Source: Nitrospiraceae bacterium
Lineage (GTDB): Bacteria; Nitrospirota; Nitrospiria; Nitrospirales; Nitrospiraceae
Direction: 5' to 3'
Length of the DNA: 35,503 bases
Assembly (NCBI GenBank): GCA_900299245.1
Contig: OMJA01000236.1
Location: forward strand, 1-35,503
Part shown: positions 1-7,197 of the stretch, piece after piece
How the letters are laid out: each line of letters starts with the position of its first letter
Numbering within the stretch: the stretch's first letter is position 1
The notes under the pieces: model-generated
The model's database searches: none
Told to the model about the DNA's origin: nothing
The model's input: the letters and a program-made list of their open reading frames with translations, nothing else
Translations under genes and position numbers: made by a program

Positions 1-313
1 AAAGGCGCATTCCTTATACACAACCGCCGCTAGAGGCGTCAATGAAGCAGCCGCCTCCCCCCCGCGGATACGAAGCACGCCCATCACACAAACCCGCACT
101 GAATATGCGCCCACCCCGCACGAACACACGGAAGCGAGCGCATCGCAATCTTGGACTGGCATAATAAAAATACACCTAGGTAATTATAACTTTCGTCCGG
201 GCAGCGAAAAACTTATCGCGCGCCCGGCGTGGAGGTCGTTCCCAAACAGCGGGATTAACAAATCGGAGGGAGAATAACGGAACGGCCACGGCACCACCGG
301 CACCAAACGGATC
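1..313. other. Intergenic flank left of the integrated element
   Basis: I see no convincing gene here. The ORF track offers only a minus-strand ORF that runs across the att repeat and has no recognisable protein character. A GC-rich interrupted inverted repeat (CCGGGC at 197-202, GCCCGG at 222-227) could form a hairpin, but no T-run follows it on either strand, so I do not call a terminator. By inference this DNA lay directly beside the 3' end of the tRNA-Glu gene before the element inserted. Confidence 0.5.
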
Positions 314-359
314 GGTGGTGGTCCCAACGGGATTTGAACCCGTGTTTAAGCCTTGAGAG
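314..359. repeat. Left att repeat: displaced 3' part of tRNA-Glu
   Basis: These 46 bp are identical to 7118-7163, the 3' part of the complete tRNA-Glu(CTC) gene. On the minus strand they run from the first base of the anticodon loop through the T arm and acceptor 3' strand to CCA plus two bases. The 5' half of the tRNA is absent, so this copy cannot make a tRNA. This is the classic scar left when an element carrying a copy of the tRNA 3' end integrates and restores the gene at its other end. The repeat ends abruptly at 360 (T here, G at 7164). Confidence 0.92.
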
Positions 360-622
360 TGCGTAATATGCTGCTGAGAGGGTGTGACCGCAAAAGATCG
401 CGAGTGACTTGTCGAGGCTGCTGGGGCGGTGTTTTTGGCTCTTTTGATTCTGGCAACCTGACTGCATTTGATACTGATTCACACTGGCTTTAGGCACTAT
501 TTAGGCACCGATTTGGGGAGCGGCCAATGGGGGCATAGGGGGGGATCTAATAACTTGCTGTTAGATCGCCTCACGCGCAGTAAATACATCAAACAAAAAG
601 ACCGCCCTTTAGAGCATCCCTT
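360..622. other. Non-coding left end of the element
   Basis: No credible gene is seen between the left att repeat and the stop codon of the TPR gene. The stretch holds the 19-bp TTAGGCAC repeat (490-508) and a 7-bp inverted repeat, GATCTAA/TTAGATC (544-550 and 561-567), downstream of the TPR gene. The latter could fold at the end of the TPR mRNA but has no following T-run. The region probably serves as an attachment arm. Confidence 0.45.
490..508 (+). repeat. Arm-type direct repeat, left end of element
   Basis: TTAGGCACTATTTAGGCAC contains two copies of TTAGGCAC spaced 11 bp apart, about one helical turn. The same 19 bp occurs at 7074-7092 in the same orientation at the other end of the element. 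Paired short repeats near both ends are what integrase arm-type or excisionase binding sites look like. The assignment is inferred from position only. Confidence 0.6.
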
Positions 623-2419
623 TTATTCTCGTTCAAGCTCTAGCAAGTGCTCATGAAAGAACGCCTCCTCTTCTGGTTCCGACTTCAAATGGTCACGTAT
701 GACTTTTGCCGCTTCTTTCCTTTTGCCAATCTTCGCAAGGGCGTGGGAGAGTAAGCCAACTCGGAAGTGTAGTGGGGGGTTCAAACCATCAGACCCAAGG
801 TCCACCGACTTGCGATACTCTTCAATCGCCTTGTCCATTTGCCCCAGCTCATCTTCGAATGCATAACCGAGCCGCACGTGAGCCTGGGGATTCTTAGGAT
901 CAATTCTCACCGCTGCTTGGAATTCCCTCATGGCTCCAGGTACATCCTTCTCGGTTCGTACTAGTAATAGTTTGCCAAGCTCAATGCGACTATACGAATC
1001 TGTGGGGTCAAAGTGAATTGCAGCGCGATATTCAGCGATCGCCTCTTCCCCGACTCCAAGCTCTTGAGCCAAAGCCCTATGTGCAGCGGCATCGCTAGGA
1101 TCGAGCGCTATGGCGTTCCGAAGTTCTGTTAGCCCTTCCTCACGGTCTCGCTGTGCATCTGCCAGTATCCGCTGGTCCTCTTCTTCGTTAATTCCCCGGA
1201 CCAATTGCCTATGGCTATATGCAAATAATGATAACGCTTGCCCGAGTTCTCGATGGTACGTAGCATTGCGAGGGGCAAGCCGAACCGCCTTCCGAAACTC
1301 GTCAATGGCACGCTCACGCCAAGCACTCCACGTCTCCGACAATTCCTTTCGGCGGTCCTTCTGGATTTTGTCTAACTTCGCCGTCTCTTCGTGAGATAGA
1401 CGGCGCTGAAATCTCCGTTCTTCGAGCTCCCTTATGACTTCTTCCATTCTTTGGTCAGGATCAACCCGCAGCACCGCCATCATTTGCAGGGTACGACCAA
1501 GGCAGGCATGCGCCTCAGCAAAGTCAGGCGCCAGCTTTAGAGCGGTTTCATATTCCTGCTTGGCTCCCCACCAGTCTCCTGAAGACTGGAGCATCACGCC
1601 CAAATTTTTATGAGCGTGAGCCGAGAGCGGTTCCTTCTTAGCTATATCGCGGAATGTGGAGATAGCCTCCTCACGTTGCCCCTCTTCAAACTGCACGAAG
1701 CCCAGTAAGCCCTGAGCTTCGGTATTTTCAGGATCATAGGAAAGCGCCTGTTCAATAAGGCCACGTGCATACTTTCGGCTCTCCGGCGTCGAAGTTCCCA
1801 CTGTAACGGTAAAGCCCTTTGGACCGGCAAGCACAACTCGCGCTCGCGCAATCAGGCTTTCCACATCGGCTTGGGTCAATATCCTCTGGCGCTCCTTTGT
1901 AACCGTCTCTGCGACGGCCTTTGTCTTGGCCACAGCCAGCTCGTGAGTCTTGGCATCCACTTCTTTGCGTAACTTCAGGGCCTCAGTCTCAGCACGAAGC
2001 AGCTTGGCTCTAACATCTTCATTTTTTCTTAACGCCTCAATCTGACGGGCTACCACATCGGTATCGATCTTGACCTTTACATCTACGCGTATGACGGTGG
2101 TTTCCCCCTCCATCATCGTGCGACTGGCCTGTTCAATCACTTCCACGATTCCAGCGGTATAGGCTCGAATCTCGTCTTTGGCCAAATCGAGATTCTTCAC
2201 TTCCGTGATGCTCTCGATGTACACCCCTGCTTGTTCCAGGGCCAGACGTTTCGCATCGAGCAATGCCAAGCGTTTGGCATCGGTGCGAGTGTCGTTATCC
2301 CCCATCCGATATTCGCCGGTAGTGGTAATGGTTCGGACTTCAGCCAGGGCTGGCCGAGCCAACAAAAGAATACACCCCACTGTCAGCAAGATCCCCGCTT
2401 CAAGGAAGCCGCACTTCAT
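623..2419 (-). CDS. Secreted TPR protein with FlgT-like N-terminal domain (probable cargo)
   Basis: The chosen start (MKCGFLEAG) gives 598 aa with a clean signal peptide: a Lys, a hydrophobic stretch, then ARPALA before the mature EVRTITTTGE. Upstream in-frame Met codons would put a polar extension before the signal. Residues about 28-115 (repeated DAKRLAL, then QAGVYIESITEVKN) resemble the FlgT N-terminal/LPP20-like fold found in exported proteins. A charged coiled-coil follows to about 190, and from about 215 to the end there are many TPR-like helical repeats (for example SAHAHKNLGVMLQSSGDW). It is probably a periplasmic scaffold. It is the last gene of the leftward operon side, separated by about 250 bp from the replication genes, and has no evident role in replication, so I read it as cargo. 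Its function is unknown. Confidence 0.8.
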   Translation of the reverse strand: MKCGFLEAGILLTVGCILLLARPALAEVRTITTTGEYRMGDNDTRTDAKRLALLDAKRLALEQAGVYIESITEVKNLDLAKDEIRAYTAGIVEVIEQASRTMMEGETTVIRVDVKVKIDTDVVARQIEALRKNEDVRAKLLRAETEALKLRKEVDAKTHELAVAKTKAVAETVTKERQRILTQADVESLIARARVVLAGPKGFTVTVGTSTPESRKYARGLIEQALSYDPENTEAQGLLGFVQFEEGQREEAISTFRDIAKKEPLSAHAHKNLGVMLQSSGDWWGAKQEYETALKLAPDFAEAHACLGRTLQMMAVLRVDPDQRMEEVIRELEERRFQRRLSHEETAKLDKIQKDRRKELSETWSAWRERAIDEFRKAVRLAPRNATYHRELGQALSLFAYSHRQLVRGINEEEDQRILADAQRDREEGLTELRNAIALDPSDAAAHRALAQELGVGEEAIAEYRAAIHFDPTDSYSRIELGKLLLVRTEKDVPGAMREFQAAVRIDPKNPQAHVRLGYAFEDELGQMDKAIEEYRKSVDLGSDGLNPPLHFRVGLLSHALAKIGKRKEAAKVIRDHLKSEPEEEAFFHEHLLELERE

Positions 2420-2668
2420 CTTTGGAGAGGTCCGTAAAGGAATCATTTCAGCGGAGAAGGTATGCTGGTGGTCCCGCGCTGTCAAGATTGCGAGTGATGC
2501 ACAAAGGAGTCGCACGCTATCACGGAATGTCATTGCACTATCGAAGTGAATCGCACGCCTAAAGAAACCAGCGATTTTAGGATGACGACCGATTTCTTTC
2601 GATGGATACTAGCGATATGGCTTCGAATGGGGTCTTAGGCGCATACGGCTTTTGACAAAAAGGAGAGG

Positions 2669-3091
2669 CTATTGATTAGCGTTCAGCCACCGAAAGACCA
2701 AATGGGAATGCGCTGGCGGGTGACAGGTGCCACAAATCACCGCCCCATGTATGGACTCCCAGAATCGAACAGTCTGACAACACTGGCAAGCTTCTGGCCT
2801 GGACTGCTCCGCAAACGCCTGGCGGCTCCTGAGCAAGTGTCCACGTATCCACCGTATTCCATTCTCGTACTCTACACACAGCCAAAAGGCCGCGCCCGCT
2901 TTCATGAAATGAGTCACTCGGGCCGGACCTAGAATCTGACCTGTCACCGCTTCCCAATAGACTGGCCTGAGACCTGTAACACTCTCGACCTGTACAGAAG
3001 TACATTCTTTTGGCTTATCAGGGGACAGAGGCCCCTTTGGTTCTGTTTGCTGCCTTTGCTCGATCTTTTTAATACGGATCAGATAACTCAT
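2669..3091 (-). CDS. Small Cys-rich zinc-finger-like protein of the element
   Basis: The track ORF begins at 3283 inside the upstream gene. The Met at 3091 (MSYLIRIKKIEQ) lies after that gene's stop at 3153, has an AGGG-like ribosome site, and gives 140 aa. The C-terminal part has CQCC and, about 18 residues later, CGTCHPPAHSH, which would form a four-Cys zinc ribbon with nearby His. A basic N-terminus fits nucleic-acid binding. It follows the DUF3987-like gene by 61 bp on the same strand, so it is probably cotranscribed. I do not recognise a named family; a role in replication or gene control of the element is a guess from context. Confidence 0.6.
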   Translation of the reverse strand: MSYLIRIKKIEQRQQTEPKGPLSPDKPKECTSVQVESVTGLRPVYWEAVTGQILGPARVTHFMKAGAAFWLCVEYENGIRWIRGHLLRSRQAFAEQSRPEACQCCQTVRFWESIHGAVICGTCHPPAHSHLVFRWLNANQ

Positions 3092-3152
3092 TTGCCCTGT
3101 GCCCCTTGCGATATAAGCGAGAAAAGCGAAAGAAGCCACCTTCTTTATTCGC

Positions 3153-4532
3153 TTAATTCGCTTTCTTCGCTCCTGGCCTCCATACAGTGCAAGGCCTCCC
3201 GCCTGTTGAAGCTGACTCACAGTGTGCGAGTCCAGCCGAAGACAATACGGCTTTTGCTTGTTGAAGCCTTGACGAAGGTACATGTCTCTTGAACAGGGTA
3301 GAAATGTCGGAATCGGTTAGCTCCCCCTGTACGCGGAGAGCCCGAAGAATGGCGTCGGCCTCGGAATCACCGGTGCTGTCCCCAAAGATCATGCGCGTAG
3401 AAGCCTGGGCATATTCCCAGAGCGCCAAGGCCGCTTTGAGATGCACGAGGTCCATCTCACTCTTGCCATCGAGGACCGCATACAGCCCTGATAGTCGCAT
3501 CACGTGAGCCTCAGCTCTGCCCAACAAGGACCCGGCAAGTCCTGGCTGATCAGAGGACAGATCGTGATAGACCGCTTTCCATCCGTCGCGAAATAACTCC
3601 GTCATGCCTATGGAGCCGATGCTCCTGGCATGTTGGACTGCTTTGCCAGCCCTAGCGGAAAGCTCATTCATCTCGGATTCGGCCGGGGCAGAAGGGAATG
3701 GCAGCTCCTTAGAACGTTGAACGGCAAGCCAGACAAACCGATTCCCGAACCCATTGGAGGATTCTGTGCTGGTCAGATTCCGTAATAGCTCGTCTTTGGT
3801 TACATGCCCAACAACCCCTATATGCGGATCGGTTGCCCGAACCCGATTCGCCTTCGTCATCGGAGCCAACGTCAGCCCATCCCATGCATCCCGAAGGACA
3901 CCAGACAGAGAATTCCCCTCTCTCGCCATGACTCGGAGCACTGCCCCAAATTCGCTTTGCACGAGAAACAGGCGCTTGTCTTCTACCCCCAGATCAACGA
4001 CCCTCTTGGTGGTCCTCCCTTTGGACTTCCCTTCCTCTTTTACCGACTCATCCGGCGGCGGCGGATCTCTAACGGCAAACGCCAAACCTTCCCCACTGGA
4101 AAGCGTGCCCCTTAATTCGCCTCTTGTCCATGTCGGATCAGCCGCCTCCCATAACGTTTTCATGCGTTTATCTGCGGTTCCCTTGCGAGACTTGCTTGAT
4201 CGGCCAACGAGGACAGGCCAAAAGAGGAGGGGATGATAGGTGCCGTCGAGAATTAGGTGAGGACGGCGATTCAACAAAGTTCCCGCCTCAGCAAGGAACG
4301 ATGCCAGCAATGCTACAGGGTCGGCTTCCGTGTGTGGCTCGATCAAACGAACGACTTCACCGGCCAGCCCGTGCAGTGCAGCTTCGTCCAGTAGCGGCCA
4401 AGGCTGGGGGTTAGTCATCTCCTTCGCCACCTCAGTGTCTTGGCTTGGTAACAATGTCTCAACCCCTTGGAGGAATCGCTCCTGCACCTCCTGGAGCCGT
4501 TCGCTCTGTTGAAGAAATTCAGCCTCGCTCAT
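3153..4532 (-). CDS. DUF3987-like (YfjI-type) replication protein
   Basis: A 459-aa protein counted from MSEAEFLQQ. That start has GAGGGGG about 10 nt upstream and overlaps the previous gene by 14 bp; the track start 12 codons earlier lies deeper inside that gene. The sequence resembles DUF3987/YfjI proteins, which occur with primases in satellites and integrative elements. Visible marks are a loop like a degraded nucleotide-binding site (LVGRSSKSRKGTADKR, where GxxxxGK would be expected), a conserved block LVQSEFGAVLRVMAREGNSLSGVL, and a winged-helix-like C-terminus (GELTDSDISTLFKRH). It sits directly after a CHC2 zinc-finger gene, which supports a DNA replication role. The enzyme activity itself is not established for the family. 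Confidence 0.72.
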   Translation of the reverse strand: MSEAEFLQQSERLQEVQERFLQGVETLLPSQDTEVAKEMTNPQPWPLLDEAALHGLAGEVVRLIEPHTEADPVALLASFLAEAGTLLNRRPHLILDGTYHPLLFWPVLVGRSSKSRKGTADKRMKTLWEAADPTWTRGELRGTLSSGEGLAFAVRDPPPPDESVKEEGKSKGRTTKRVVDLGVEDKRLFLVQSEFGAVLRVMAREGNSLSGVLRDAWDGLTLAPMTKANRVRATDPHIGVVGHVTKDELLRNLTSTESSNGFGNRFVWLAVQRSKELPFPSAPAESEMNELSARAGKAVQHARSIGSIGMTELFRDGWKAVYHDLSSDQPGLAGSLLGRAEAHVMRLSGLYAVLDGKSEMDLVHLKAALALWEYAQASTRMIFGDSTGDSEADAILRALRVQGELTDSDISTLFKRHVPSSRLQQAKAVLSSAGLAHCESASTGGRPCTVWRPGAKKAN

Positions 4533-4980
4533 ATAACGCCCCCTCACTGTGGAGAACGGTGTAGGCACTAGCCAATCGGCTCAAAGCGCGATCGAGTACG
4601 TCATCCGACCAATGAGAGATGTCGATTGTAGAGGCTGCGCGAATTAACTGTTCCGCCTCACGTGCCACATCAATTCCGAGTCCGCGTTTTCGTTGTGCCT
4701 GTTCGCGAGCACGACGGTCAGCTTCACGCGCGCGAGACGCCTTCCGCCATGCTCTTGAGTCCTGTTCATTGCTATAGAAGAGGTCCCGAACCATCAGTCC
4801 GAGTGCTTCACAAATTGTGTTGAGCGAACAACCTGCAAAACAGTGAAGCAACACCCCTAGTTCGCCCTCACGGATTGATAACGACGGGGATCGGTCATCA
4901 TGAGCTGGACATTTCGCCTGCCATCCCCGTCCAGTCCGCTTCACCCCATCTAAGCGGGTGAGGAAATCCTCAATGGTCAT
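4519..4980 (-). CDS. CHC2 zinc-finger primase-like protein
   Basis: A 153-aa protein. Its N-terminal half matches a DnaG-type CHC2 zinc-binding domain: MTIEDFLTRLDGVK, then CPAHDDRSPSLSI and LHCFAGCSLNTI, giving the C-x2-H...C-x4-C ligand set. After about residue 70 comes a charged Arg/Glu-rich helix, then a helical tail. There is no TOPRIM or polymerase domain, so it cannot be a full primase alone; it probably recognises template DNA for another enzyme such as the neighbouring DUF3987-like protein. The start codon overlaps the stop of the excisionase-like gene (ATGA) and its 3' end overlaps the next gene by 14 bp, indicating one translationally coupled operon. Confidence 0.8.
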   Translation of the reverse strand: MTIEDFLTRLDGVKRTGRGWQAKCPAHDDRSPSLSIREGELGVLLHCFAGCSLNTICEALGLMVRDLFYSNEQDSRAWRKASRAREADRRAREQAQRKRGLGIDVAREAEQLIRAASTIDISHWSDDVLDRALSRLASAYTVLHSEGALYERG

Positions 4981-5180
4981 CGCTCACGTGCCTCAACTCT
5001 GTTGTTGGCCAGGAATCGTTCAAGGTCGGGTACCGCAAAGACAATCCGCCTTCCATTTCTGTAGAAGGGAATCCGCTTCTCCCTCGTCCAAGCTCTCAGC
5101 GTATGCGGAGAAACCCCAAGAATCGGGGCAGCCTCGACAAGGGACAATTTCACGCACTCGGGAGACGCATTTCTCAACAT
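4977..5180 (-). CDS. Excisionase-like MerR/HTH_17 DNA-binding protein
   Basis: A 67-aa protein with a single winged HTH: LVEAAPILGVSPHTLRAWTREKRIPFYRNGRRIVF, followed by DLERFLANN. This pattern is typical of HTH_17/excisionase-family proteins, which bind DNA at attachment arms or act as small regulators. An AGGAGAT sequence sits immediately before the ATG. It is the first gene of the leftward operon, and its stop overlaps the start of the CHC2 gene. In satellites such proteins often both direct excision and activate the replication operon; which applies here cannot be read from sequence. Confidence 0.8.
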   Translation of the reverse strand: MLRNASPECVKLSLVEAAPILGVSPHTLRAWTREKRIPFYRNGRRIVFAVPDLERFLANNRVEARER

Positions 5181-5248
5181 ATCTCCTGGCTCCTTTCAGT
5201 TGATAACGGTTGATTTCTTCGACTAGACGGGAATATATTGCAGCAATA

Positions 5249-5289
5249 GTACAAAGTCATCTATGTACAGTTTGTACGTAGTCTGTACA
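5249..5289. promoter_or_regulatory. GTAC-repeat operator cluster in the divergent promoter region
   Basis: Four GTAC cores lie at 5249, 5265, 5274 and 5285. Two of them belong to a perfect inverted repeat, TGTACAG (5264-5270) and CTGTACA (5283-5289), with a 12-nt spacer that itself contains TTTGTACGTA. The cluster lies between the divergent leftward operon (start 5180) and rightward operon (start 5303). It is a good candidate for the element's master repressor or activator site. The binding protein could be the CGNR-like protein or the HTH protein on either side; this is inference. Confidence 0.6.
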
Positions 5290-5302
5290 CGGGAAGAAAC
5301 GC

Positions 5303-5992
5303 ATGACTAGACGCGGCATTAGAAAGACTGGGAATTCCAGAAAAAAAATCCCTGAGGCTGTACGGGGCAAAGACGCTCAGTTTGGAGATTTGGAATGGCT
5401 TTGTGCAGTACTTAATCGAATATCCGACCCCAGCTTTTCCGGTCCACTGTCGGAACAATCAGACCCCACACACCCGCATCACGCTGAGTTCGTTACATCC
5501 GAGCGAGCTGCCTGGAGGCTCGCTATCGAAGTTCTTGAGCCCCTCGGATTGGTCCATCGCTATGCCGTGAAACGGCCTCAGAATTTTAATGCGGCCTACT
5601 CGGGAGTGAGCATGAGATTTGCGGCACTGTTGGGACAGTACGCAAACGGACGGCTAGTTGTTATCCAAGAAACCAAATATCCACAGAACGATATAGATAG
5701 CCCTGTCTGGCTTCGTGCCACCGTAGAACTCCCCCAAGCCTGGGGAGCTGACAACATGAAACAGTTTGTTGCCGTCTTGCTCTGGAAGAGAATCTTCCAG
5801 GAAGAAGGATACAAGAAGCTGCGCCGTTGCCTTCACTGCTCTCAATGGTTCCTCGATCATGGACGAAATCAGATCGCGAAGTTTTGCAAGAACCCTTCGT
5901 GCACGAACGTGTGGTGGAATCGCGGGAAAAGACGACAAGCAAAGCAGCGCCAGCAGGTATCTCAAAAGAAAGGGAAAGGAGAGCTGTCATGA
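5303..5992 (+). CDS. CGNR-like zinc-finger protein of the element
   Basis: A 229-aa protein. The C-terminal 60 residues (about 170-215) read RRCLHCSQWFLD, then RNQIAKFCKNPSCTNVWWN, then basic RGKRRQAKQRQQ. This C-x2-C ... C-x4-C pattern with an SRN-like turn and basic tail resembles the CGNR zinc finger of stress-type transcription regulators, though the CGNR tetrad itself reads CTNV. The N-terminal 165 residues are unrecognised and may sense something. The start follows GGGAAG directly after the GTAC operator cluster, and the stop overlaps the integrase start (ATGA), so it is cotranscribed with the integrase. A regulator of integration is plausible but unproven. Confidence 0.68.
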   Translation: MTRRGIRKTGNSRKKIPEAVRGKDAQFGDLEWLCAVLNRISDPSFSGPLSEQSDPTHPHHAEFVTSERAAWRLAIEVLEPLGLVHRYAVKRPQNFNAAYSGVSMRFAALLGQYANGRLVVIQETKYPQNDIDSPVWLRATVELPQAWGADNMKQFVAVLLWKRIFQEEGYKKLRRCLHCSQWFLDHGRNQIAKFCKNPSCTNVWWNRGKRRQAKQRQQVSQKKGKGELS

Positions 5993-7077
5993 CTCAAATC
6001 GAAAACCTCCCGAAGCCCCGACGCAAAGGAGGGAAACGTGACGGGCTGTTTCAACGCAACGGCTGGTGGTGGCTCGATTACTATGACGCTGAGGGAAAGC
6101 GGCATCGGCAGAAAGCCGCGCCGGACTATGAGACAGCCAAGAAACTGTATCGGGAGAAGATGACCGGTATTGCGAAGGGCGAATTTCTTGGCGTCAAAGA
6201 GGAAGGAATCAGCCTGAAGAGGTTTGTGGAGGAAAAGTACTGGCCGACGATCAAGGGCTCACTCAGCTATTTTGAGGAACGACGCTCTCGCTCCATCCTC
6301 GATCAACACATCCTCCCCCGTTTCGGAGACTTCAAGCTTGCCAAGGTTCGGACGGAAGATATTGACCGCTGGCAATCCGGACGGATGGAGAAAGCCAGCC
6401 CTGGCACAGTGCGAAAAGAGATAATGCGCCTCAAGCACCTACTGAACTGCGCCGTGAAGTGGCGGTACATCAAAGAATCACCTGCCAAGGGCCTGCAAAC
6501 CGTCAAAATGCCCCCAGGACGAGTCCGATACCTCACATCAGAGGAAAGAGCCACGTTGCTTGAGACTGCTCGCCCAGACCTTCGCCCTTATATCGACGTC
6601 GCCTTGCAAACTGGCGCACGGCGAGGGGAACTATGTGGCCTTCGCTGGAGTGATGTCGATATGCGAACCAGAACGGTGGCCTTCCCGAAAACCAAGAATG
6701 GGGAGCGGCGAAACGTCCCGATGACTGATACCCTGTACCAGCTCCTTCAAAGTCTCCCCCGCCCGTTGGACCCGAAGGCCCTCGTCCTGCCATCCCTGAG
6801 CGCCGATGCCGTGACGATAGGGTTTGGCCGGCTGGCAAAAGCCCTGAATCTCTCCAACCTCAAGTTTCACGATCTTCGGCATGACGTAGCCAGCACACTC
6901 ACAATGGCGGGAGTTCCTCAGCGAAGCGTGATGGAAATTTTAGGGCATAAAGACCCGCGCATGACGCTCAGATACCAACACCTCACGCCAGCCCACCTCC
7001 GTAATGCGATGACTGCCCTTGAGTCCAAGGAACATGAAGCTCCAGCCCAACCCCAGGCAGCGGGGCAGGCCGGTTAG
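5989..7077 (+). CDS. int: Tyrosine recombinase (phage-type integrase)
   Basis: The track ORF begins at 5827, but the ATG at 5989 has AGGAGA 8 nt upstream and a 4-bp ATGA overlap with the previous gene, giving 362 aa. An N-terminal AP2-like arm-binding region (NGWWWLDYYDAEGKRHRQ) is followed by a SAM-like core-binding domain (about 75-165) and the catalytic domain. The catalytic set is present: Arg in TGARRGELCGL, Lys in PKTKNGERR, His/Arg in HDLRHD, His in LGHKDP, and Tyr in LRYQHL. It would catalyse site-specific integration and excision at the tRNA-Glu att sites 41 bp downstream. Its stop codon lies inside the right-hand 19-bp arm repeat. Confidence 0.96.
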   Translation: MTQIENLPKPRRKGGKRDGLFQRNGWWWLDYYDAEGKRHRQKAAPDYETAKKLYREKMTGIAKGEFLGVKEEGISLKRFVEEKYWPTIKGSLSYFEERRSRSILDQHILPRFGDFKLAKVRTEDIDRWQSGRMEKASPGTVRKEIMRLKHLLNCAVKWRYIKESPAKGLQTVKMPPGRVRYLTSEERATLLETARPDLRPYIDVALQTGARRGELCGLRWSDVDMRTRTVAFPKTKNGERRNVPMTDTLYQLLQSLPRPLDPKALVLPSLSADAVTIGFGRLAKALNLSNLKFHDLRHDVASTLTMAGVPQRSVMEILGHKDPRMTLRYQHLTPAHLRNAMTALESKEHEAPAQPQAAGQAG

Positions 7078-7092
7078 GCACTATTTAGGCAC
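7074..7092 (+). repeat. Arm-type direct repeat, right end of element
   Basis: An exact second copy of TTAGGCACTATTTAGGCAC (first copy at 490-508), in the same orientation. It contains the integrase stop codon TAG and ends 25 bp before the right att repeat. It is a likely integrase arm-type or accessory binding site, inferred from symmetry of placement at both element ends. Confidence 0.6.
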
Positions 7093-7117
7093 TGGAGATT
7101 TTGAGAAGTGCGTAAAT

Positions 7118-7163
7118 GGTGGTGGTCCCAACGGGATTTGAACCCGTGTTTAAGCCTTGAGAG
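7118..7163. repeat. Right att repeat, part of the intact tRNA-Glu
   Basis: An exact 46-bp copy of 314-359. It covers tRNA-Glu from the anticodon loop to the CCA end plus two bases. Since the integrase lies on this side, the tRNA 3' half here was supplied by the element, which keeps the gene functional. The repeat border at the anticodon loop is a common crossover zone for tRNA-targeting recombinases. Confidence 0.92.
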
Positions 7164-7197
7164 GGCTCCGTCCTAGGCCAGGCTAGACGATGGGACC
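7120..7197 (-). tRNA. tRNA-Glu (anticodon CTC)
   Basis: Read on the minus strand it is 78 nt including encoded CCA. Acceptor GGTCCCA pairs with TGGGACC, followed by discriminator A. The D stem is GTCT/GGAC, the anticodon stem GAGCC/GGCTT with loop CTCTCAA (anticodon CTC, reading GAG), and the T arm ACGGG-TTCAAAT-CCCGT. All four stems form, so the gene should be functional. It is the integration target of the element to its left. Confidence 0.95.

Follow-up and report, generated by a model that had tools for sequence, protein, structure and literature searches.

Most of what is known of phage satellites comes from a small number of cultured groups: staphylococci, enterics, vibrios and marine cyanobacteria. 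In phage-inducible chromosomal islands (PICIs), genes for an integrase (int) and a regulator diverge from xis, pri and rep, and two sets of iterons, with an AT-rich stretch between them, lie immediately 3′ of rep (PMC6092414); PICIs are induced by phages and packaged in phage particles. The Rep protein of Staphylococcus aureus pathogenicity islands (SaPIs) reads its iterons with the C-terminal domain (PMC7581432). Phage-inducible chromosomal minimalist islands (PICMIs) are modelled as int, an AlpA gene (PF12728) and a DUF3987 (PF13148)/DUF5906 primase gene, with an ATGA overlap at int; in PICMI115, excision requires int, AlpA and the gene with the ATGA overlap, and replication requires the primase (PMC10803314). 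Packaging of PICMIs is thought to need only a DNA motif (PMC11389934). The subject here is an integrated element at positions 314-7163 of a 35,503-nucleotide stretch of Nitrospiraceae DNA (GCA_900299245.1, OMJA01000236.1; the window), which is one entire contig, C236, of a metagenome-assembled genome (MAG) of 3.0 Mb and 87.6% completeness. The element brings a packaging-less, PICI-like layout to a presumed Nitrospira host, a key nitrifier. We put the probability that it is a minimal PICI-like satellite (a ‘hitcher’) with its own replicon at about two in three; such a satellite would presumably depend on a helper phage.

The replicon centres on a helicase gene and a candidate replication origin, made of two iteron arms, at the end of that gene:

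3153-4568, minus strand: DUF3987-type MCM-like AAA+ helicase, 471 residues, with a C-terminal winged helix (homology and predicted fold)
3148-3170, minus strand: iteron arm 1, GCGAAGAAAGCGAATTAAGCGAA, overlapping the helicase stop codon
3108-3130, plus strand: iteron arm 2, GCGATATAAGCGAGAAAAGCGAA, inverted to arm 1, with a 9-bp period

On its coding strand the gene ends in GCGAAGAAAGCGAATTAAGCGAA and the inverted array lies 17 bp beyond, across a gap (3131-3147) in which 7 of 17 bases are G or C. The same plan, three 9-bp-spaced iterons and then three inverted ones at the helicase stop codon, recurs in 37 of 98 relatives when a strict array is defined as at least four of six iterons exact. 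Dinucleotide shuffles never give the array (0 of 4,900), and 8 of 10,589 sequence windows taken from elsewhere in these loci do; the only ones among them to score 5 or more belong to a second, real array in the viral contig L166. In the strict period test, period 9 returns 27 loci, and periods 6-8 and 10-13 return 0 or 1. A reading of the 9-bp period as a codon repeat of the helicase tail was rejected, because the inverted arm begins only after the helicase has stopped and 9 is the one period that stands out.

The iterons read [G/A]CGNN and vary between elements, and their first base follows residue 429 of the helicase, which sits immediately ahead of the final helix in the C-terminal winged helix. 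Among strict arrays, His429 accompanies GCG in 22 of 22 and Asn429 accompanies ACG in 15 of 15 (37/37); the association with iteron base 1 reaches z = 36, and that of the next-best column 6. Loci without a strict array, scored by tandem pairs for A versus G only (TCG being the other strand of CGA), give 26 + 16 agreements and 2 exceptions (42/44, p = 7e-10); one exception, L134, has ACGCG iterons that fit both readings. A further set of new loci divides 10/2 against 3/13 (p = 0.0016), and 18 of the 19 calls there that rest on at least two pairs agree, as counted from the table. In a quick tree of modest support, built from the helicase core with the C-terminal domain left out, residue 429 switches at least 20 times and the iteron base at least 15 times, and all six independent supported pairs change residue and base together. 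Residue 423 tracks base 5 (Ser with A in 35/41, Arg with C in 7/8). In the window helicase, the residues that covary with iteron bases are His429 and Ser423. These patterns provide strong indirect evidence, drawn from sequence, that the helicase itself reads the iterons. The code offers a cheap, direct test of origin choice by initiator helicases and, together with the origin, a search handle for such elements where no packaging gene marks them.

Lys or Arg stands at position 429 beside ACG iterons in three distant Nitrospirota loci (L198, L199 and L200), possibly as a third state of the code. One genome of the family carries two such helicases (L196 and L202, on G301:C1), both with Asn429 and ACG iterons, which raises the question of compatibility between elements.

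The preliminary description of this DNA, made from its letters alone, had called the helicase DUF3987-like, and homology and predicted fold point the same way. The protein has no direct Pfam match of its own; over 411 residues it is 45% identical to part of a 731-residue protein of the congener G052 that passes PF13148 (DUF3987). Its predicted structure (predicted local distance difference test, pLDDT, 85; predicted template modelling score, pTM, 0.80) matches MCM helicases of the PDB in fold searches (E ~3e-6, template modelling score 0.36-0.43) and DUF3987 phage proteins, the best viral match having an E of 1e-24. A helicase-profile sequence search of the PDB was uninformative. No primase is fused to the window helicase.

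The element is real and is inserted at a tRNA-Glu site, bounded by these features:

314-359, no strand: attL, a 46-bp copy of the tRNA-Glu 3′ half (repeat search)
7118-7163, no strand: attR, the second copy of the 46-bp repeat (repeat search)
7120-7197, minus strand: target tRNA-Glu(CTC), intact (ARAGORN)
489-508, plus strand: left integrase arm-type tandem site, TTTAGGCAC-TA-TTTAGGCAC, 20 bp (sequence match)
7073-7092, plus strand: right integrase arm-type site, one mismatch to the left site

The duplication first reported at 314-359 and 7118-7163 is indeed exact over 46 bp, extends to 49 bp at 98% identity and corresponds to the 3′ half of tRNA-Glu(CTC), which is intact. The contig stops 313 bp left of attL, a caveat on the left flank. 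The arm-type site has two matches in the window (0.01 expected), one near each element end, as is usual for integrase arm sites, and G+C content is mostly 50-57% within the element against ~60% in the window beyond. The genus comparison covers 79 genomes and the phylum comparison 396, and a scan of species genomes yielded 236 relatives, 80 of which were kept. An empty tRNA-Glu site, which the preliminary description had proposed to seek in related genomes, is present in three congeners (G051, G002 and G039), with no element between the left anchor (window 1-52) and the tRNA; the distance from anchor to intact tRNA-Glu is ~215-230 bp there versus 262 bp for the window minus the element. Because these congeners have empty sites, the site was not ancestrally occupied. 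The window integrase and the open reading frame (ORF) beside it, ORF229, occur in 0 of 78 other congeners at the thresholds used. G030 keeps only an integrase 3′ relic, 90% identical in nucleotides, at the same tRNA-Glu with an arm site (L020:160-400, G030:C3); to judge from the sequence, it shows an earlier visit by a close relative of the window element.

The tRNA-Glu(CTC) gene is a hotspot, with other kinds of tyrosine integrase nearby in L002, L003, L014-L016, L023, L024, L028, L030 and L061. In G065, a 47-bp identical copy of the tRNA-Glu 3′ half (L044:9643-9689; G065:C2:24643-24689) lies on the second contig, of 273 kb, directly after a truncated transposase ORF; it may be a plasmid-borne att site, either attP-like or left over.

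Read from the tRNA, the gene order is int and a zinc-finger ORF, then on the opposite strand the HTH_17 xis gene, the CHC2 gene, the helicase gene, a small ORF and a tetratricopeptide repeat (TPR) gene. Apart from the helicase, the features are:

5989-7077, plus strand: tyrosine integrase, 362 residues (PF00589, 1.5e-28; catalytic R, HxxR, H and Y present)
5303-5992, plus strand: CxxC zinc-finger ORF (ORF229), 229 residues (weak zf-CGNR match)
5181-5302, no strand: divergent promoter region with four GTAC palindromes within ~45 bp, operator-like (read from the bases)
4977-5180, minus strand: AlpA/Xis-type HTH_17 excisionase, 67 residues (PF12728, 1.6e-12; TIGR01764 over cut-off)
4519-4980, minus strand: CHC2 zinc-ribbon (DnaG-type) protein, 153 residues (PF01807, 1.8e-5; phrog_6088, 1.1e-14, residues 1-77)
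2669-3091, minus strand: small ORF after the origin, starting MSYL, family ‘YLD’, with a zinc-ribbon-like C-terminus (36% identity to an ORF of the G052 element)
623-2533, minus strand: cargo, a secreted-type TPR protein, 636 residues (Pfam TPR)

The integrase, excisionase-like and CHC2-like proteins named earlier are thus borne out by PF00589, by HTH_17 with TIGR01764, and by a CHC2 zinc-finger match that sits exactly at the Pfam cut-off. The CHC2 protein aligns to the zinc-ribbon part only (positions 2-80 of 772 in phrog_6088) and has no TOPRIM domain match. The GTAC palindromes are likely an operator for the HTH_17 or the zinc-finger protein. ORF229, whose stop overlaps the int start in ATGA, occupies the place of the PICI repressor and of PICMI iolg. 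This position makes it a probable regulator, which may act as repressor or excision cofactor; its structure model (pLDDT 48) is too poor to use. Homologues or look-alikes lie between int and xis in L101, L142, L138 and L174. The YLD family has 10 ORFs in the profiled loci. The N-terminal domain of the cargo protein has a homologue in 74 of 79 congeners (~38-48% identity) and is paralogous to a genus-wide host gene; because of this paralogy to a core gene, a host origin of the cargo is likely.

Models for capsid, terminase, portal and relaxase have no match in the seven main ORFs, in line with the earlier report that structural, terminase and conjugation genes are absent, and relaxase and conjugation genes have no Pfam or NCBIfam match in the element's ORFs. 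The excisionase weakly matches one terminase-small-subunit PHROG, which is put down to the shared helix-turn-helix. PADLOC finds no defence system in the element, with weak domain-level matches only, to the CHC2 and helix-turn-helix proteins. The term ‘minimal replicon’ is right about a replication module and understates the rest, namely the TPR cargo and the probable regulator or excision cofactor; the preliminary description had left out the cargo gene, the zinc-finger ORF, the arm sites and the origin.

For a satellite, these parts suggest the following cycle. The integrase would recombine the element into the 3′ half of tRNA-Glu and leave the tRNA intact, an insertion that the att repeats and empty sites show. 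Excision as a 6,804-bp circle would be triggered by the HTH_17 protein, possibly helped by the zinc-finger protein whose gene overlaps int in ATGA. The helicase is proposed to use its C-terminal winged helix to bind the inverted 3+3 iterons where its own gene ends, and so to start replication of the circle, the match of helicase to origin being backed by the residue-base code. Priming would probably come from a host or helper primase, because the CHC2 protein has no TOPRIM domain. The DNA most likely exits in helper-phage particles by way of a cos- or pac-like sequence, as proposed for PICMIs, since the element has no packaging gene of its own.

Helicases of this family are found in 7 of the 79 genus genomes and 15 of the 396 phylum genomes. 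Sister elements lie at tRNA-Lys in G070 (6.1 kb), at tRNA-Thr in G057 (7.3 kb) and at tRNA-Gly in G059 (48-bp att, ~13.7 kb, L039:8290-16501); that of G052 (L041:4404-16500) apparently splits an ABC (type I secretion) transporter gene and is flanked by an 18-bp att-like repeat (94%). Because sister integrases are only ~26-32% identical to that of the window, integration and replication modules appear to be exchanged freely. Between its att repeats the G059 element also holds a trypsin-like protease ORF beside a 1197-residue TPR-CHAT-like protein; the two may form a defence or cell-death pair. The search for homologous modules that had been suggested yielded 13 other elements of this layout, each lying between tRNA att repeats and measuring 6.1-11.0 kb, at different tRNAs in several phyla (other Nitrospirota, Bacillota, Chloroflexota, Omnitrophota and Acidobacteriota); the 103 loci profiled each reach only ~8 kb per side, so that larger elements would escape. 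In these elements, 77 ORFs have no capsid, portal or TerL match among the 25 of 57 PHROG families listed, where TerS families are present for some, and no relaxase or capsid in the full Pfam results. The order int-zinc finger divergent from xis-(CHC2)-DUF3987 is repeated in L101 (Nitrospirales), L138 and L142, with no xis scored in L142. PADLOC returned only a generic TPR match for ten cargo proteins of relatives.

We consider it quite probable that these elements form a phylum-spanning, tRNA-targeted class of minimal hitchers, in which a DUF3987 MCM-like initiator and 3+3 inverted 9-bp iterons are matched by a winged-helix code (His/Asn429 to G/A at base 1; Ser/Arg423 to A/C at base 5), with the result that sequence would reveal both the origin specificity and the incompatibility of an element. 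The inverted 3+3 array at the helicase gene end and the residue 429 code are new here. An open literature search found no description of the Nitrospira element, of the 3+3 plan with DUF3987 or of the His/Asn code, which is not proof of absence. It likewise found no paper on a Nitrospira satellite, as expected if such elements are little described in Nitrospirota; the type also occurs outside that phylum.

Viral contigs, all reached through helicase alignments, link the module to phages. In L164 a helicase 69% identical to that of the window adjoins a major head protein (1.8e-57), in L165 and L169 the DUF3987 replication module stands beside TerL, and L171 combines it with int, xis, TerS and TerL; L164 and L171 have the iteron array. 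L174 has the order int-zinc finger/xis-DUF3987, followed by a protease, a TerS-like ORF and TerL. This TerS-like ORF, next to TerL in L174, is named by position and has no PHROG match; the G059 element carries a homologue of it (36%). L166 (IMGVR_UViG_3300044960_000896) has 127-bp terminal repeats and is a complete circle of ~9.0 kb with an integrase, a fused primase-helicase and, right after int, a partial tRNA that makes a tRNA-type attP; no capsid gene was identified in it. It matches what an excised relative should look like. It carries two full iteron arrays, one on each side of the primase-helicase gene.

The satellite reading is favoured by the nearest module relatives, which adjoin phage packaging genes, by the PICI gene order and by both arm sites, and it would build on site-specific integration, empty sites, intact core genes and a strongly supported origin with its reader. 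Several points weigh against it. Excision, replication and transfer are predictions, and neither a helper phage nor a TerS, cos or pac site came to light for the element. PF05065 and PF04860 have no match in the MAG (87.6% complete). Viral contigs scanned for the window integrase, the attL junction, the arm site and one helicase sequence gave no match, hence no copy of the element itself, and the helicase family, found in larger phage-like contigs as well, is not satellite-specific. The tRNA site, in place of fis, means that the element is not a PICMI.

The preliminary description had left the choice between a phage satellite and a plasmid-like element. The former is the likeliest reading, and the either/or falls away, the plasmid-style iteron origin being found in PICI satellites too. 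An integrative plasmid-like replicon that needs no phage helper, and spreads through natural transformation or through an oriT used by a conjugative helper, would suit the autonomous replication module with its iteron origin, the packaging genes that were not found and the one circular relative in which no capsid gene was identified; it is unlikely given the lack of a relaxase match, the capsid and terminase genes of the closest module relatives, in viral contigs, and the TerS-like genes of several sister elements. Loss of the packaging module from a capsid-forming PICI (cfPICI) or prophage, leaving an immobile remnant, is less probable still: L174 and L164 do carry the same module with packaging genes, and G030 has its relic at the same tRNA, but the window element has all its core genes, its att repeats, its iterons and its two arm sites intact, the packaging-less layout recurs in the 13 other att-bounded elements, and the empty sites of congeners speak against ancestral occupation. 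A mobile genomic island capable of integration and excision only, its helicase serving another purpose such as defence, would account for the cargo gene, and satellites commonly carry defence genes (PMC10803314). PADLOC gave no match of note, and the helicase is tied to the origin by the inverted iterons and the residue-base code, which makes this reading very improbable.

Compared with described systems, the satellite-like element of the window is closest in plan to PICIs and SaPIs: int and a regulator (by position) on one strand, xis, primase, helicase and origin divergent from them, then cargo, with two iteron sets (3108-3130 and 3148-3170) 3′ of the helicase gene. The winged helix of the helicase is proposed to read these iterons as the C-terminal domain of SaPI Rep does. 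It differs in having no TerS, interference or capsid-size genes, which are optional in PICIs, in its initiator, a DUF3987-family MCM-like helicase, and in its 9-bp, 3+3, inverted iterons. With PICMIs it shares a size of ~6 kb, int (PF00589), an ATGA-overlapping gene, AlpA (PF12728), a probable counterpart of the DUF3987-type primase, cargo, and the lack of capsid-remodelling and packaging genes; in contrast with PICMIs, it sits at tRNA-Glu and not fis, in a Nitrospirota host, with no helper known, and its helicase has no fused primase and falls below Pfam detection, reaching PF13148 through the 45%-identical homologue. Unlike cfPICIs, it has no capsid, portal or TerL genes of its own, and unlike integrative mobilisable or conjugative elements it has no relaxase or conjugation gene match in Pfam or NCBIfam. 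The PICI-like contigs L164, L171 and L174 share the xis/DUF3987 module (L171 and L174 also int; L164 and L171 the iteron array) and have major head protein, TerS, TerL or protease genes where the window has TPR cargo. Tycheposons, as described second-hand in PMC10872708, are likewise tRNA-bounded, with a tyrosine recombinase and cargo; they are cargo elements of 4-200 kb first described in Prochlorococcus, likened here by that description only. In the staphylococcal cassette chromosome mec (SCCmec), the initiator helicase Cch2 also binds iterons just downstream of its own gene by its C-terminal domain, but it is a D5-type helicase, and recombinase, host and cargo are other (PMC7581432). The window element is thus neither a PICMI, having no fis site, nor a cfPICI, having no capsid; it is PICI-like and, by analogy, would depend on a helper.

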